Positions 4,007-57,299 of a DNA stretch of 64,000 bases are shown one piece after another; within the stretch, counting starts at the first letter, position 1; every line of letters starts with the position of its first letter. The stretch is taken from the IMG/VR virus record IMGVR_UViG_3300023106_000001, positions 1-64,000 of that record; one strand, given 5' to 3'. Source of the DNA: a virus. Position numbers and translations under genes: made by a program. The notes below the pieces were generated by a model. It made no database searches. It saw only the letters and a list, made by a program, of their open reading frames with translations, and had not been told where the DNA came from.

Positions 4007-5989
4007 TTAATGTACGTCTCCATAAGATTTTGCAAACTCTGGGGAAGATTCAAATTGAATTGGTTGATTAAATGCCCTATTAACTTTATCCATACTTTCT
4101 TGAATAATCTTTCTAGTTTTCTCCTCCTCTCCCTCATTAATATACCAGGAGGCCTCGTCATGTACCGTCATTATTGGCTTCACACCTGCTTGGATTAAAT
4201 ACCATAAAAAAGTATCAAACACACAAGACCCGAAATTCTGATTACATGCTGAAAATTTAATATGATCCGCAGTTAGTAGTAGCCATAACTTTGTGAAAGG
4301 GTTGTAGATCCAATTCTTACCTTCTACAGTTTTAACAGTTAAATTATCAGTATACTTTTTAACACTCCAGTTAAGATCCCAATAAGTTTTATGTAAAGCT
4401 TGCCCAACTTTTAAAGCTACCCCTGCTGTTTCTGCAATTTTCTTAGGAGATGCTGAATATGTGGCACTGTAGTTAGTGGTCTTACATGTGTGGCGAACTT
4501 TAGATAATCTATTAAACTGTTCATATAGTTCTGTAATATTGTAAATTTTAAAACTTTCTGGAATTTCTTTATATAATTCTTCTGTATTTTTTTCCTCTTT
4601 TTTTGACCACTTACTATAGATTTTATAAAAGTCTATCTCATCTTCTGACATAAAATTTCCTAAAAGTGCAATTTTCAAATGGGCATCATATCCAGGAGTA
4701 TTTAGTGTTTCAACATACTCTTTATCATAAGGATAAATGGAACATTGCTTAGTCTTATCTTCAAGGCTTGATAAATCTGCGTTTACTAATAATTTCTTTT
4801 CTGGAGCAATTAGACACTTTCTAACTAACTCTCCATATTGTGAATTATTTGAAGGTAAGTTAACAATTGGTTTTATATGTTTTACGCGCCATGTTTTTGC
4901 CATTCCAGACCAAGATGCTGTAACATAACCATCTTCTGTCATAGTGCTTAAAAATGCCTTTAAATAGCCTGCTCTATGTTGTGCAACGCTTAATCCATCA
5001 AGTGATTGTAATTCAGGATTTTTTTCTATTAGTTTTTGTATACTTTTACACAAATTTTTCTCATCATCTCTTAATTGAGGAACTTTTCCATTTGCTCCAT
5101 CTTTAAATAATTTTGGCTCCCATCCAAGTGATAGTAAGTAATCTTTCATTTGTTTAGTGCTCTGACAATTAGGTTCAGTGTATCCTGTAGTAACATTTAT
5201 TTGACCATCATAATCTTCTGGTAAATTGCAAGCTTTAACCATTTCAAACCACTTCTTTCCACTTTCACTTAAATCTCCTGTTTTTTTATAGAGTACTTTT
5301 GGTCTATTTCTTGTTGATACTATAGGAATCTTTGGTAAGATAGAGTTGAGTTCAGTCTCTTTTTCAGATATAATTTTTTCAAGATAAGCTAAGTTTTTTT
5401 TACATAGCTCTACATCTAGTTTTATCTTATTATTTTCTTGAATATGTTGTAATTCTATTTTAAAATTAGCTCTTGATATTGGAGAATGAATTTCATCATC
5501 AGTTTCGTATAATTGTCTTAATAAATCCAACTGTTTATCCCATAATAAGGCGTTTATTAAACAATCTCGTTCACAACGTTCAACAGCTTTATCATAAGAT
5601 AGATTTGCCCACTCTTCTGGAGATATTTTTACTTTTTCATACCCCATCTCGATACCCCATTCTTCAAGACCGTGTTTTAATCTATCATTGTATAGGTAAT
5701 GACTTAACGATAGAGAATCAATTATTTTAGCTTGGAAATTAATTTCTGGAAACATAATCTTAAGAGCTGGCAAATCATATCCCAGAAAAAAATGTCCTAC
5801 AATAGTATTATCAGGATTTTCAAACAGTTTTTTTATATCTTCCTCTTTATTTGTTGATTTTATTTTCCATTCTTCCTCAACTTTCCAAGCTACAGATAAT
5901 ACGTGAAGATCCTCCTTAGATTTAATTACATCTAAAAGTCCAGTAGTTTCTATATCGGTTACGTATACATTATCTAGGTTATATTTCAT
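4007..5989 (-). CDS. Family A DNA polymerase with 3'-5' exonuclease
   Basis: 660 residues, the usual length for a phage PolA-type replicative polymerase. Exonuclease motifs: Exo I VTDIETTGL (D12, E14), Exo II GHFFLGYDLPAL near 65, Exo III ERCERDCLINALLWD near 140. Polymerase motifs: A LLVNADLSSLEDKT near 390, B RHTCKTTNYSATYSA near 497 (conserved Arg and Lys present; the usual YG is YS), C TVHDEASW near 610 (HDE). It copies the phage genome. It overlaps by four bases with the upstream HNH endonuclease gene, a common place for a homing endonuclease. No frame interruption seen. Confidence 0.95.
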   Translation of the reverse strand: MKYNLDNVYVTDIETTGLLDVIKSKEDLHVLSVAWKVEEEWKIKSTNKEEDIKKLFENPDNTIVGHFFLGYDLPALKIMFPEINFQAKIIDSLSLSHYLYNDRLKHGLEEWGIEMGYEKVKISPEEWANLSYDKAVERCERDCLINALLWDKQLDLLRQLYETDDEIHSPISRANFKIELQHIQENNKIKLDVELCKKNLAYLEKIISEKETELNSILPKIPIVSTRNRPKVLYKKTGDLSESGKKWFEMVKACNLPEDYDGQINVTTGYTEPNCQSTKQMKDYLLSLGWEPKLFKDGANGKVPQLRDDEKNLCKSIQKLIEKNPELQSLDGLSVAQHRAGYLKAFLSTMTEDGYVTASWSGMAKTWRVKHIKPIVNLPSNNSQYGELVRKCLIAPEKKLLVNADLSSLEDKTKQCSIYPYDKEYVETLNTPGYDAHLKIALLGNFMSEDEIDFYKIYSKWSKKEEKNTEELYKEIPESFKIYNITELYEQFNRLSKVRHTCKTTNYSATYSASPKKIAETAGVALKVGQALHKTYWDLNWSVKKYTDNLTVKTVEGKNWIYNPFTKLWLLLTADHIKFSACNQNFGSCVFDTFLWYLIQAGVKPIMTVHDEASWYINEGEEEKTRKIIQESMDKVNRAFNQPIQFESSPEFAKSYGDVH

Positions 5990-25132: not shown

Positions 25133-25870
25133 TTATTTATTATTAAACCAATAGTAATATTCATCTATTGGGTTTGTTGTTAAACATTCTGTATAGCCCT
25201 GAAATTTTATTTTTGGCTCATATTTATAGTTTTTAAACTCTTTCAAAAATCTTTGCTCTAAGTTATAGGCAGATACCATATCTAATTCTTCTGTGTATTT
25301 TACAAAAACTTTGTAGTATTTACGTAACTGGTTTAACCTATACTCGAACCTATGTTTACTGACTATACCTACTTTGTAAAATGATTCACCAGTATTTGAA
25401 AGTATCAGGACGTAGATAAACCCTTCTATGTTTTCTATAAAATCTTTATGTGAAATAATAGTCGTATCGTTATACATTATAACTTGTCTCATACAATATG
25501 GGCATCCTTGTGTGTTAGCCATATGATGAGAGGGTCTTTGTTTATATTTATAATCATGTATTTTACACCTTAAAGAGATATTATCTTTATTATTAATGTA
25601 AATAGCTTGGGAATAATCTATAAAATCAGCATCTTCTCTAAATTTTCTACTCCTTTTAACCCAAAAATCTGTTTTGTTTATCGCTGATTTTATACTCAAC
25701 TCTTTCCATTCTAATAGAGAATCTGCACACACTTCTAATTCACCGAATTCTGAATTAACCCTTACTTTAGTATTATCATAATATTTTAAATTGATAACTT
25801 GGTTATAAATTTTAGGATTTTTATCTTTAAGTTTCTTTGAAAACTCTTCACTTGTTAACTTTTTACACAT
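25133..25870 (-). CDS. GIY-YIG-like homing endonuclease with treble-clef domains
   Basis: 245 residues. The first half has the FIDYSQAIYINNKDNISLRC plus IHDYKYKQRPSHHMA and GCPYC pattern seen in phage endonucleases that bind DNA through zinc-containing repeats. The second half, GFIYVLILSNTGESFYKVGI followed by an Arg helix and SAYNLEQRFLKEF (Glu), fits a T5orf172/GIY-YIG fold. It sits next to the retroelement cassette and was probably acquired separately. Confidence 0.75.
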   Translation of the reverse strand: MCKKLTSEEFSKKLKDKNPKIYNQVINLKYYDNTKVRVNSEFGELEVCADSLLEWKELSIKSAINKTDFWVKRSRKFREDADFIDYSQAIYINNKDNISLRCKIHDYKYKQRPSHHMANTQGCPYCMRQVIMYNDTTIISHKDFIENIEGFIYVLILSNTGESFYKVGIVSKHRFEYRLNQLRKYYKVFVKYTEELDMVSAYNLEQRFLKEFKNYKYEPKIKFQGYTECLTTNPIDEYYYWFNNK

Positions 25871-25943
25871 ATTTTAAACTACCAAATATTATTTTATTAT
25901 ATTGTTAATCTTGATTGCTCTATTTCTTTTTTAAATTTCTCAG

Positions 25944-26306
25944 CTATTTCTTTTCCGTACTCTTCTTTTTGAAGCAAAGAGCGGACGGGACATTCGAATT
26001 CACGCAGATATCGTACACGCTGCTGACACGAAAAGGATCATTATAGTACCAATTATAATATTTACGCTCGTTTTTATCTTTCATATTTGGTTTCCAACCT
26101 TTATTATAAAAAGCAACTATCATTACTTCTTTTTGATAATACTTTAAATGTAAGGGAATATTGGAATAGTCTTTTTCAAATTGATCCTCTGTTGTGTTAT
26201 GGTATTTATAAACTTCATCCATTGGAGACTTTTTCTTAGCTTCTTCTAATATCTTACTTAACTGTTCTACAGTATACTCTGATCCATTAATGTTAATTGT
26301 TTTCAT
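25944..26306 (-). CDS. DGR target protein 1 (frameshifted C-terminus)
   Basis: 120 residues. N-terminal helices (VEQLSKILEEAKKKSPMDEV), then WKPNMKDKNERKYYNWYYND and the variable repeat PFRVSSVYDICVNSNVPSA, ending LCFKKKSTEKK. This block resembles a soluble phage/prophage family with a WKP...KYY.W...LCF...A.Y layout. The family's last helix is missing in frame: restoring one A in the A5 run at 25966-25970 reads EEYGKEIAEKFKKEIEQSRL before a stop near 25905. Its ATG is inside the end of the RT gene (14-base overlap). No signal peptide. Confidence 0.85.
   Translation of the reverse strand: MKTININGSEYTVEQLSKILEEAKKKSPMDEVYKYHNTTEDQFEKDYSNIPLHLKYYQKEVMIVAFYNKGWKPNMKDKNERKYYNWYYNDPFRVSSVYDICVNSNVPSALCFKKKSTEKK
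25978..26037 (-). repeat. DGR variable repeat 1 (VR1)
   Basis: 60 bases aligned without gaps to the template repeat at 27335-27394. Ten differences, all where the template's coding strand has A (A to G eight-fold or A to T). The two A positions nearest the 3' end (CCA to CCG, ACT to GCT) also differ identically in VR2, and GCTCTTTGCTTCAA follows in both, probably marking the initiation-of-homing end. Confidence 0.93.
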
Positions 26307-27225
26307 ATTTGTTTTTTAAATTTACAGAATTGGAATGAATTAACCAACTATTCCAATCTTTTTTGTTTTTACTCTTTTTATAATTCTCTTTAATACTTTT
26401 TCTTATTAATATATAATTCTTTCGGTGTACATAGCCTACAAAGTCGATACCTCTTTTTTCAACTGGAAATATCTGGTATGTATTTTTTATTTCAAGTCCC
26501 AGCGTCTTTAGATATAATCTTATTTTAAATAAAATATAATGCAATTCCTTTTTATTATTCGATAAAATCACAAGATCATCCATATATCTAAAATAGTACT
26601 TAACATTTAAATTTTCTTTTATGTAGTGATCTAAGTAACATAAGTAAAAATTTGCAAAATATTGACTAATTAACGATCCTAAAGGTAACCCAATCTCATT
26701 AGAATCTATTATTTCATCAAAGATTGTTAACAATTCTCTATCCTTAAACTTTTTTCTTAAAAGCCGTTTTAATATATTATGATCTATATTTTCATAGAAC
26801 TTTTTCACATCCAACTTCAGACAGTATTTATTACATTCTTCGTCTTGCAAGGATTTTCTTAAATCACAAGAGGCTTTATGTACACCTCTACCTTTAATAC
26901 CACTGTACGTATTACTTATAAAACTATTTACAAAAATTTCTTTGGTTTTTAACAGTATTGCCCAGTGCATGATACGATCTGGATAATAAGGTAATCTTGC
27001 TATTACTCTATGCTTTGGCTCAAATATTTCAAATTTACTATAATTAGATGTTCTGTATTTTCTATGTTGTAGTAATTCATTCAACTCTTTTAGATTCTCA
27101 TCTTCTCTTAATATATGTTTTTGAACACCGTATTGTTTTAATTTACCTAATCTGGCATTTCTATCTGCTAATTTTAGATTATTTACTTCAATTATACTCT
27201 CATATAAAAATCCTTTTCTCTTCAT
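26293..27225 (-). CDS. DGR reverse transcriptase
   Basis: 310 residues. RT blocks: RVIARLPYYPDRIMHWAILL (1-2), KYCLKLDVKKFYENIDHNIL (catalytic Asp in LDVKKFYEN, 3), IGLPLGSLISQYFANFYL (4), YYFRYMDDLVILSNN (catalytic YMDD, 5), LEIKNTYQIFPVEKRGIDFV (6-7). The SQ ending of block 4 (LGSLISQ) is the mark of DGR reverse transcriptases, unlike the SP form of group II introns. It copies the template RNA with errors at A. No accessory Avd gene is evident beside it. The template lies 110-169 bases upstream. Confidence 0.93.
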   Translation of the reverse strand: MKRKGFLYESIIEVNNLKLADRNARLGKLKQYGVQKHILREDENLKELNELLQHRKYRTSNYSKFEIFEPKHRVIARLPYYPDRIMHWAILLKTKEIFVNSFISNTYSGIKGRGVHKASCDLRKSLQDEECNKYCLKLDVKKFYENIDHNILKRLLRKKFKDRELLTIFDEIIDSNEIGLPLGSLISQYFANFYLCYLDHYIKENLNVKYYFRYMDDLVILSNNKKELHYILFKIRLYLKTLGLEIKNTYQIFPVEKRGIDFVGYVHRKNYILIRKSIKENYKKSKNKKDWNSWLIHSNSVNLKNKYENN

Positions 27226-27334
27226 TTATTTTGCTTCAAGAGGCTCCTGTTCAATCTATTTACTAGGGAGCCGAGCGTTAGTTTTATTTTTTACCTTGTT
27301 GGTAGGGATATATTCTACATTATTAAAAAGCAGT
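27226..27334 (-). ncRNA. TR-RT spacer, probable structured part of DGR RNA
   Basis: 109 bases between template repeat and RT start. On the minus strand GGCTCCC (near 27275) and GGAGCC (near 27245) can pair across an ~18-base loop. In the studied Bordetella phage DGR the RNA 3' of TR folds and primes cDNA synthesis; this spacer is the equivalent position. The hairpin is seen; its function is inferred. Confidence 0.55.
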
Positions 27335-27394
27335 AGAGTGGATGGGACATTCGAATTCTCGTAGTTATTGTTCACGTTGTTGATACGAAAAGGA
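27335..27394 (-). repeat. DGR template repeat (TR)
   Basis: 60 bases, not part of a gene. In the reading frame of the targets it would encode INNVNNNYENSNVPST: five of the variable codons are AAC or AAT, the usual design that lets adenine mutagenesis reach many amino acids without stops. It lies between target 2 and the RT gene, all on the minus strand. Confidence 0.95.
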
Positions 27395-27429
27395 GGGGAA
27401 TGACCAATTGATAAATACATCCTATTTTT

Positions 27430-27993
27430 CTATTTCATATAATTTTCATATAAACTAAAAAACTCTTTGTTTTGGTGGGCATAAATTGCAATTTCACGTT
27501 TCTTGAAGCAAAGAGCGGACGGGACACTCGAACTCTCGCAGTAATAGTTCACGAAGTCGATACGAAAAGGATTCCTATACCACCAAATGTAGTATTTATA
27601 CTCATTAGAGTCTGACCAATCTAACACATGTCTTTCATTAAGAGATTTAACCCAACAAATAAGCATTTGAAATGATAAAGATTTAGAAGTTATATTAGCT
27701 TTTATCAGTTTTTTATACTCAATTACATCTTCGTCTTCTTCTCCTAAATATTTTATTACATCATCGAAACTCTTAATATCCTCCCAATTATCACGAACAT
27801 CAAATATCTCTTTAACTACAGGCAATTGAACATCTGTACAAGCCTTAATCATCTCATTAATTTGCTTTTCTGTGAATTTTATTGTTTCGCTGAATGGATC
27901 TTCTTGTGCGTATTTGGCTAACTTTGGCTTCCAAGTATCACAAGAAATTTCCCAAATCTTTTGTAGTTCTGATCTTTTTATTTCTGTTTTCAT
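27430..27993 (-). CDS. DGR target protein 2
   Basis: 187 residues, complete. Residues 1-125 are helical with no signal peptide (MKTEIKRSELQKIWEISCDT). Then VLDWSDSNEYKYYIWWYRN, the variable repeat PFRIDFVNYYCESSSVPSA, and a fixed end LCFKKREIAIYAHQNKEFFS followed by LYENYMK. The ending matches the LCFK..e.A.Y....F..iY..y form of a soluble phage/prophage family. It resembles no tail fibre or C-type-lectin receptor-binding protein that I recognise. Binding partner unknown; variation suggests it must follow a changing intracellular partner. Confidence 0.88.
   Translation of the reverse strand: MKTEIKRSELQKIWEISCDTWKPKLAKYAQEDPFSETIKFTEKQINEMIKACTDVQLPVVKEIFDVRDNWEDIKSFDDVIKYLGEEDEDVIEYKKLIKANITSKSLSFQMLICWVKSLNERHVLDWSDSNEYKYYIWWYRNPFRIDFVNYYCESSSVPSALCFKKREIAIYAHQNKEFFSLYENYMK
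27512..27571 (-). repeat. DGR variable repeat 2 (VR2)
   Basis: 60 bases aligned to TR without gaps: ten differences, all at template adenines (A to G or A to T). Seven of the ten sites differ from those changed in VR1 or changed to another base, so the repeats were rewritten independently. Confidence 0.93.
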
Positions 27994-28130
27994 AATGTTT
28001 CGTTTATTACAATATATTTAATATTATCTTCTGTTTCTTTTACTTCTCCTTGTGCCAGTATTTGTTGAGCTGTTTCTGGATGTATTTCGTGTATTAACGC
28101 TAGTGTGATCCCCATGTATATTACTTTCAT
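27990..28130 (-). CDS. 46-residue protein heading the DGR cassette
   Basis: MKVIYMGITLALIHEIHPET, then AQQILAQGEVKETEDNIKYI. Shares ATGA with the start of target 2. It is the first gene after a TATATTTG box, so it leads the retroelement operon. It does not look like Avd (too short and not basic). Its start is preceded by AGCGTAGCGT, also found before the gene at 37108-37308. Confidence 0.6.
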   Translation of the reverse strand: MKVIYMGITLALIHEIHPETAQQILAQGEVKETEDNIKYIVINETL

Positions 28131-28153
28131 ACGCTACGCTTTGTATTGTTTTA

Positions 28154-28161
28154 CAAATATA
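28154..28161 (-). promoter_or_regulatory. Probable -7 box for the DGR operon
   Basis: TATATTTG on the minus strand, 24 bases before the 46-residue ORF. I see no TTG at the usual distance, so the promoter would be partial; a dispersed motif (CCGCGG at 28178-28183) occupies that region instead. Confidence 0.5.
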
Positions 28162-28167
28162 ATGTTT

Positions 28168-28440
28168 TTATTCTTTTTCCGCGGAAATTAAAAAATTCTC
28201 AGCATACTCATCAAACTCCATTTCATGTTCCTCATTATAATAGTCAACCCACTCACCATCATCAAACATTTGAACTAAGATAATATTTGCATAATCTGGA
28301 ATAAAGCTATTTTCAAACAAAAATAGGTGTTGATTGGCCAAAGCTTCACTTACTAAATATGCTTGTTCTTCATCTTTTACTTCCACTGTAAACGGTTTAC
28401 ATGGTATTTGTGGATAATGTAATACTCTTAGTTTTTTCAT
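28168..28440 (-). CDS. Hypothetical protein
   Basis: 90 residues: MKKLRVLHYPQIPCKPFTVE, VKDEEQAYLVSEALANQHLF and an acidic C-terminus. This resembles a conserved small Bacteroidota-phage protein of unknown role. Its last codons cross a CCGCGG motif copy. Confidence 0.75.
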   Translation of the reverse strand: MKKLRVLHYPQIPCKPFTVEVKDEEQAYLVSEALANQHLFLFENSFIPDYANIILVQMFDDGEWVDYYNEEHEMEFDEYAENFLISAEKE

Positions 28441-40688: not shown

Positions 40689-40892
40689 CTATAATACGAC
40701 ATTTGCCACTTTATAGACTATGTAATCAATAGTTTCATAAGGAATATCTCTGTCTAAGGTTCTAGTTGATACACTTAATAAGGTTGATACTTGTGTTTTG
40801 AACCTGTAAATAGTTATTTCCTTGGTATTTTTGTCTAGTACTGCATATTTTAATGCTCTTTTAAGTACTTTCTTATTGTCTTTATGTCGCAT
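40689..40892 (-). CDS. Possible small DNA-binding protein
   Basis: 67 residues, basic. ALKYAVLDKNTKEITIYRFK then TQVSTLLSVSTRTLDRDIPY resembles an HTH (S.STRTL.RD). May be a regulator. A TACATTTG box lies 28 bases upstream (40921-40928). Confidence 0.6.
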   Translation of the reverse strand: MRHKDNKKVLKRALKYAVLDKNTKEITIYRFKTQVSTLLSVSTRTLDRDIPYETIDYIVYKVANVVL

Positions 40893-40951
40893 TCATTAGC
40901 TTATACGGTTAATAATACGACAAATGTAATAATATTATTTGAATTATACTA

Positions 40952-41197
40952 CTAATGTTCTATATTTTTAAATTTTCCTATCTCTGTTACTGTTTCTAAA
41001 CTTGTTTTAAGTTGTTCGTCTAATTTTTCATTGTATAGTTTTTCTATTGCTTTGAATAGTTCTATACTTTGTTTAGGTGTTTTATCTTGAAGTATTATTT
41101 TTACTATTATTGATATTTGTATTTGATTGTCTTTTTTAACTGTTTCTATCTTTTTTTTGCGCAAATAAGCTTGGCATTTTTTAATTAGTTTTTCCAT
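40952..41197 (-). CDS. Hypothetical basic protein
   Basis: 81 residues: MEKLIKKCQAYLRKKKIETV, then strands and helices. A clean motif copy (41138-41164) codes residues 11-20. No family recognised. Confidence 0.7.
   Translation of the reverse strand: MEKLIKKCQAYLRKKKIETVKKDNQIQISIIVKIILQDKTPKQSIELFKAIEKLYNEKLDEQLKTSLETVTEIGKFKNIEH
41138..41164 (+). repeat. Dispersed motif inside a gene
   Basis: Plus strand: AACTGTT, 14 T-rich bases, GCGC. In the 5' part of the gene at 40952-41197, where it encodes LRKKKIETVK. Confidence 0.55.
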
Positions 41198-41201
41198 TGT
41201 T

Positions 41202-41576
41202 TTAGTTTTTTATTCCCGCAGAATTTTCGTTATACCATTTAATAAAGTCAATACAGGCGTTATAAACAGATTCTATTTTACTTGTACCGTTTAAATTAAT
41301 AATTTCATCATAAGGAAAATCTTTAGTATTTATTATTGATACACAAGAACCCGTATAAATAGCAAAATCGAACTCTAAACTCTCTATCTTTTCTACTACT
41401 AACATCAACCAATCCCAACTATTATGAAAATATTTATAGTTATTAATGTCATTCATTAATTCAGGGTTTCTTTCTCCACCCTCATATAATTCATTCCAAA
41501 TGATGTTTAAATCCTCGTTATAATTCCTACTTAGGAACTCGGCTAATAACTTATTGTTTTGTGTTGTATCTTTCAT
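41202..41576 (-). CDS. Phage protein, SWDWLM...VEKIESL family (paralogue)
   Basis: 124 residues. NSWDWLMLVVEKIESLEFDF and IESVYNACIDFIKWYNENSA match the gene at 38612-38908. The longer N-terminal part (KLLAEFLSRNYNEDLNIIWN) differs. Role unknown. Confidence 0.8.
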   Translation of the reverse strand: MKDTTQNNKLLAEFLSRNYNEDLNIIWNELYEGGERNPELMNDINNYKYFHNSWDWLMLVVEKIESLEFDFAIYTGSCVSIINTKDFPYDEIINLNGTSKIESVYNACIDFIKWYNENSAGIKN

Positions 41577-57089: not shown

Positions 57090-57299
57090 TTACTTTTCAT
57101 ATATTATTTTTTTCAATTTTTCTCTCCATTCGTCATCAATTCTAGTTCTAATTGCCCATTCAGAGATAGATCCTCCAATATCTCTTTCAACTTTTGAAAC
57201 ACTTTTATAACACAAAGCTGTTTTTTCTATATAATCGATGTATTCTTCTGTTACATCCTCTTCGAAAAGTAATGTTATGCTTCTTATTCTGTTACTCAT
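57090..57299 (-). CDS. Hypothetical protein
   Basis: 69 residues: MSNRIRSITLLFEEDVTEEY, DIGGSISEWAIRTRIDDEWR. A possible ferredoxin-like alpha/beta fold. Overlaps upstream by four bases. Confidence 0.7.
   Translation of the reverse strand: MSNRIRSITLLFEEDVTEEYIDYIEKTALCYKSVSKVERDIGGSISEWAIRTRIDDEWREKLKKIIYEK

Follow-up and report, generated by a model that had tools for sequence, protein, structure and literature searches.

Diversity-generating retroelements (DGRs) of phages are usually explained as devices for switching host tropism. Many of them, though not all, are accompanied by the accessory protein Avd, which is not obligatory. In the survey of Roux et al. (PMC8144416), the targets of viral DGRs were classed as 'structural' or 'unknown'. 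The targets published for crAss-like phages are tail-fibre or receptor-binding CLec (C-lectin) proteins (PMC12386605 among others), and the majority of DGRs in the Zeta crAss-like phages lack Avd (PMC12386605). In Quimbyvirus, the DGR hits a gene in a defence-related island, and both of its targets were termed C-type lectins (PMC8008677).

Here we analysed a DGR located in a 64,000-nucleotide stretch of viral DNA (the window), which comprises positions 1 to 64,000 of the 141-kb IMG/VR record IMGVR_UViG_3300023106_000001. The terminase, portal and major capsid proteins encoded by this genome match PHROG head families; the phage is a crAss-like phage of Bacteroidota, probably of Flavobacteriia. 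We consider it probable that its DGR belongs to a lineage specialised on small, probably non-structural targets.

Architecture and adenine specificity of the element

The first-pass annotation had placed a complete DGR with one template repeat (TR) and two variable repeats (VRs) at 25940-28161. A DGR is indeed present there, but target 2 already ends at 27993, inside this interval. As claimed, all parts have one strand in common; it is the minus strand, where the order is target 2 (VR2), TR, spacer, reverse transcriptase (RT) and target 1 (VR1). The positions given for the three 60-nt repeats proved exact (Table 1), and when the complete 140,992-base genome was scanned, only these three came up. 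There was thus no third VR; the 60-mer ranking next had 19 non-A mismatches.

Table 1. Coordinates of the DGR components and associated features. Positions refer to the window unless a locus is named.
Feature	Position	Strand	Basis or remark
Target 1, 120 aa, paralogue of target 2, overlaps RT 3′ end	25944..26306	minus	ORF list, comparison with sisters
VR1 (60 nt, within target 1)	25978..26037	minus	10 differences to TR, all at A
DGR-type RT, 310 aa, GxxxSQ form of motif 4 and YMDD	26293..27225	minus	RVT_1, phrog_1423, 8ub7, tree
TR-RT spacer, about 109 nt	27226..27334	minus	Rfam RT-14 match below gathering
Hairpin GGCUCC...GGAGCC	27242..27272	minus	just before RT start; 10 pairs in 7 phages
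TR (template repeat, 60 nt, non-coding)	27335..27394	minus	base-by-base alignment with VRs
Target 2, 187 aa, phrog_11581 family	27430..27993	minus	phrog_11581 E 1e-6; 88% identical to sister L002
VR2 (60 nt, within target 2)	27512..27571	minus	10 differences to TR, all at A
46-aa ORF, overlaps target 2 start (ATGA)	27990..28130	minus	same ORF at the same place in L002 and L069
phrog_19665 ORF, examples in related loci	L140:5913-6209, L172:7937-8230, L131:6330-6626		

The alignment of the repeats clearly confirmed the adenine-only pattern reported earlier: 20/20 differences fall at adenines of the TR strand, and in the window all of them are changes to G or T; A→C is additionally present among the VRs of relatives. 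Adenine makes up 19 of the 60 bases of the TR coding strand, and the probability of obtaining the A-only pattern by chance is 1.2e-6 per VR and 7e-11 over the 15 distinct sites. In a base control with A as the free base, repeats with zero non-A mismatches were found in 22/22 related loci (44 hits); with C, G or T as the free base, the same loci gave 0, 8 and 2 hits, respectively. The spectrum pooled over 126 TR/VR pairs from the wider family (1015 G, 477 T and 252 C) is biased because the pairs were chosen for zero non-A mismatches, and the claim of A-specificity relies instead on the window alignment, the sister comparison and the base control.

Read in the target frame, the TR encodes PFRINNVNNNYENSNVPST. 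None of its 12 adenine-bearing codons is able to give a stop upon randomisation of A, so that the TR is stop-proof, and its coding capacity is about 4e10 proteins. The VRs are located near the C-terminal codons of two ORFs, i.e., in the 3′ part of each target gene (VR2 about 27 residues from the C-terminus of target 2). At the 3′ ends of the repeats, where IMH (VR) and IMH* (TR) would be expected, the two VRs have a common flank, unlike that of the TR, and the four VRs of the window and the sister phage L002 all have G at position 56.

The RT that had been proposed between the TR and target 1, with LGSLISQ and YMDD motifs, is present and intact. It matches RVT_1 (E 4e-17) and phrog_1423 (E 2e-95), and its best solved chain is PDB 8ub7 (E 1e-33), which we take to be the RT of the BPP-1 DGR. 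In the tree, it groups with DGR RTs, and TR/VR pairs are present in nearly all such loci for which a complete RT and sufficient flanking sequence are available. DRT, retron and group II systems were considered as alternatives and rejected: their NCBIfam scores were sub-threshold only, and the PADLOC matches were to generic RT. The earlier remark that no Avd gene is visible agrees with the lack of a PF05635 match in the whole 141-kb genome, this model being a weak detector even in controls. The A-only TR/VR pattern, the position of the RT among DGR RTs and the adenine-specific VR variation between sister phages (see below) all support the original identification, and the element is almost certainly a DGR.

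Judging from its resemblance to Rfam models, the TR-RT spacer probably forms the structured 3′ portion of the template RNA. The window matches RT-14 (RF02921) at 27236-27338, although weakly, with 29 bits vs. a gathering threshold of 48.1 bits; the spacers of L069, L070, L071 and L073 match RT-14, RT-17 or RT-18 at the equivalent place, and in wider relatives the scores exceed the RT-17 gathering score. Within the spacer hairpin, three pairs are changed on both sides with pairing kept among the seven phages. The spacer end CUUGAAGCAAA (27226-27248, minus strand) is complementary over 10-13 nt to the VR 3′ flanks in the window, L002 and L003, and over 9 nt or less in L073. Over the 126 pairs, however, the longest complement averaged 8.7 nt vs. 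8.2 nt in mismatched pairs; being barely longer, it does not represent a general mechanism of spacer-VR pairing.

As to the borders of the cassette, the 46-aa ORF upstream of target 2 was not seen in L003, L070, L071 and L073; it is possibly a leader or a small partner and not a defined DGR part. A gene of the GP17 superinfection-exclusion family (28168-28440, minus strand; PF17420, E 5e-15) lies just upstream of the cassette. Directly after target 1 there is a T5orf172-domain (GIY-YIG-like) endonuclease gene (25133-25870, minus strand), which is likely a mobile insertion because L002 and L073 have different genes at this place.

The short-target family and the role of its members

The window targets belong to phrog_11581, a family of short proteins (118-200 aa) of unknown function; no Pfam family matched target 2. 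A profile search with the target family gave 115 viral relatives, and 80 viral loci were taken for analysis. Beyond the window's own group, TR/VR pairs were found in 62 of the 63 RT-holding loci (126 pairs in all), some of the 63 being near-duplicates. The DGR targets in these 62 loci are one to three tandem family genes beside the RT. The corresponding RTs are nearly monophyletic: in a tree with 59 short-target RTs, only 2 label changes were required vs. 37 with shuffled labels, and L081, a long-branch CLec row, was placed inside the short-target clade with moderate support. The window DGR is a member of this short tandem-target class, since its family targets adjoin the TR and its RT falls in the same clade. 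Among the other relatives of the RT (30-52% identity), longer targets predominate: most are about 300-750 aa in length and carry the VR near their C-terminus, and many have C-lectin-like ends. In a locus from an uncultured Aquimarina (L174:5881-7551), four target-family genes stand in tandem, three of them with near-identical N-termini.

In 47 of the 63 short-target loci, the 3′ end of the RT is adjoined by an ORF of about 98 aa that belongs to phrog_19665 (Table 1). It is common, not universal, and is additionally present in some CLec loci (L010, L013, L017, L026, L049 and L050). Its position makes it a candidate accessory protein replacing Avd. It is absent from the genome of the window phage and its sisters, where target 1 occupies that place.

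The genomic setting of the cassettes bears on the role of the targets. In the window phage, the DGR lies apart from the virion genes, in the half of the genome that serves replication. The neighbours of the cassettes were compared by taking the largest neighbour ORFs and the 25 commonest families, which shows tendencies and not every locus. Around short-target cassettes (40 loci, 123 neighbour ORFs), the commonest named families were ATPase, DNA methyltransferase, helicase, metal-dependent hydrolase, RecT and exonuclease, and the 25 included neither tail nor lysis families; around CLec-target cassettes (93 neighbour ORFs), they were baseplate wedge, tail, endolysin and integrase. Because methyltransferases, helicases, RecT and exonucleases stand here in place of the baseplate and lysis genes found around CLec targets, we consider a non-structural role, with a partner inside the cell, the better reading. 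Judging from gene position, the window targets are quite probably non-structural; a counter-defence role, deduced in the same way, would be a possible but rather doubtful assignment. Against the explanation as a whole we count that the nearest genes in the window (a 3′-5′ exonuclease, a weak PD-(D/E)XK match and a homing-type endonuclease) are not known counter-defence genes.

The main alternative is that this is an ordinary phage DGR whose short targets are virion-surface or receptor-binding proteins, so that diversification switches host tropism, as in BPP-1. Phage DGR targets are mostly tail proteins (PMC8144416), and so are those of the nearest named RT relatives (crAss-like, about 45-52% identity). 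A relation of the VR hairpin to the CLec-type VR would also speak for this alternative. AF2 modelling of two family members gave confident, largely helical structures except for the VR, which came out as a low-confidence loop. Fold searches with the target models gave no match in the PDB and only uncharacterised phage proteins in the viral library, and the targets showed no match to a known domain either. In a profile comparison with CLec VR ends, a VG-RL motif was aligned, the match being weak (12% probability).

A link is provided by LoVEphage (OY725593.1; L179, L180), where one TR (41078-41203) serves two VRs. The first (40791-40916) is in a tail CLec-like protein; the second (57093-57214), on the other strand and at a distance of 16 kb, belongs to a protein of 194 aa. 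Both sides of the VR in this protein match the short family, and its gene sits among methyltransferases, Lar and tRNA ligase. That one TR serves both kinds of target suggests that the short-family VR segment is related to, or exchangeable with, the C-lectin-type VR.

A tail function is nevertheless unlikely for the window targets. The targets have only 120-187 aa, with neither a signal peptide nor a tail-attachment domain apparent, and both the location of the cassette away from the virion genes and the lack of tail or lysis families among the 25 commonest neighbour families of the 40 sibling loci argue against it. Under the explanation that we prefer, a DGR with small non-structural targets, the phage RT would bind and reverse-transcribe the TR-spacer RNA with errors opposite A, as expected from established DGR biochemistry. 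The mutated cDNA would then take the place of the VRs in the two short paralogues, so that each target could exist in up to about 4e10 protein variants. Within the host cell, the targets would act as binding proteins and not as receptor-binding tail proteins; their most likely setting would be a conflict with host defences or other host factors.

Sister phages and recent activity

The 143-kb sister L002 has an RT 97% identical to that of the window and a TR that differs at 1/60 bases (T→C). Between the two phages, the VRs show 20 differences, 19 of them at TR adenines (Fisher P=1e-10): all 11 in VR2 and 8 of 9 in VR1, the sole exception being a G→T change. The DNA flanking the VRs is 91-99% identical, and the TR together with the spacer is near-invariant. 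The concentration of sister VR differences on TR adenines next to a nearly unchanged TR is strong evidence that the element worked recently, and the window DGR has very probably been active in the recent past. Five further relatives (L003, L069, L070, L071 and L073) have the same gene order, their own TR and A-only VR cores, with non-A differences located at the repeat edges.

These data bear on the possibility that the DGR once worked and is now inactive in the window phage. In comparison with L002, L003 and L073, the C-terminus of target 1 is frame-shifted starting just after VR1; it ends early because there is one T fewer than in L002 at this point, which may be real or an assembly slip. 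A 141-kb relative, G007 (L074), keeps an orphan target 1 (5001-5414) with no RT match in the whole record. Such observations would fit a relic, which we nevertheless regard as still less likely than a tail function, given the intact RT with GxxxSQ and YMDD, the VRs that differ from those of the close sister at A sites apart from one base, and the constancy of TR and spacer. In L071, the VR of target 1 (L071:6673-7035) carries a one-base insertion in its adenine-rich part that shifts the reading frame (read by eye), and for this reason it was missed by the ungapped scan; error-prone copying may also yield null alleles. Finally, variation of the repeats by gene conversion between paralogues or by another mutator, which would suit paralogous targets with similar VR 3′ flanks, is in effect refuted, both by the base specificity and by the sister comparison: the TR/VR differences are all at TR adenines and recur in sibling loci, the base control is negative, and the RT and TR are located together.

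Comparison with known systems

If the preferred explanation is true, targeted hypermutation also serves conflict inside the cell, in a large clade whose targets lie in the replication/DNA-modification region. We put forward, as a tentative proposal, that there is a lineage of phage DGRs diversifying small intracellular proteins against host defences or host factors, instead of or besides tail fibres. The family provides a testable list of hypervariable proteins on conserved scaffolds that could serve as baits for their partners in Bacteroidota hosts, and its prophage members in the sequenced genomes of Emticicia sp. BO119 and Muricauda sp. ARW1Y1 make the short-target class accessible. In the part of the literature that was searched, we found no paper on a DGR lineage with short tandem non-structural targets only.

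Just as the DGR of the Bordetella phage BPP-1, the window element has a TR, VRs, a DGR RT and adenine mutagenesis; unlike it, the window has no detected Avd-family gene and two targets, which are not Mtd-like. The Rfam RNAs RT-14, RT-17 and RT-18 match the spacers of the window and its relatives, the window score being below gathering. With the crAss-like DGRs (crAssphage LMMB, Zeta, Epsilon), the window phage shares a related RT (about 48-52% identity) and crAss-like virion genes, and the GxxxSQ motif is as in Zeta crAss-like phages (PMC12386605). However, the related CLec loci have TRs of about 105-135 nt, whereas the window combines a TR of about 60 nt with two targets of 120-187 aa.

The second target of the Quimbyviridae DGR (Quimbyvirus ORF 84, PMC8008677) is likewise a target outside the structural module of a Bacteroidetes phage. 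Its neighbours are a nuclease, methyltransferases and a tRNA ligase, and the LoVEphage family member has a similar neighbourhood, which suggests that the 194-aa gene of LoVEphage corresponds to ORF 84. The arrangement differs, however: Quimbyvirus has its RT and TR beside the tail target, from where they act on a remote non-structural target. The window element has two targets, each of them a short family member, and a further VR is absent from the genome. Beyond this precedent, the data point to a distinct DGR class, set apart by its target family, its genome neighbourhood and its RT lineage.
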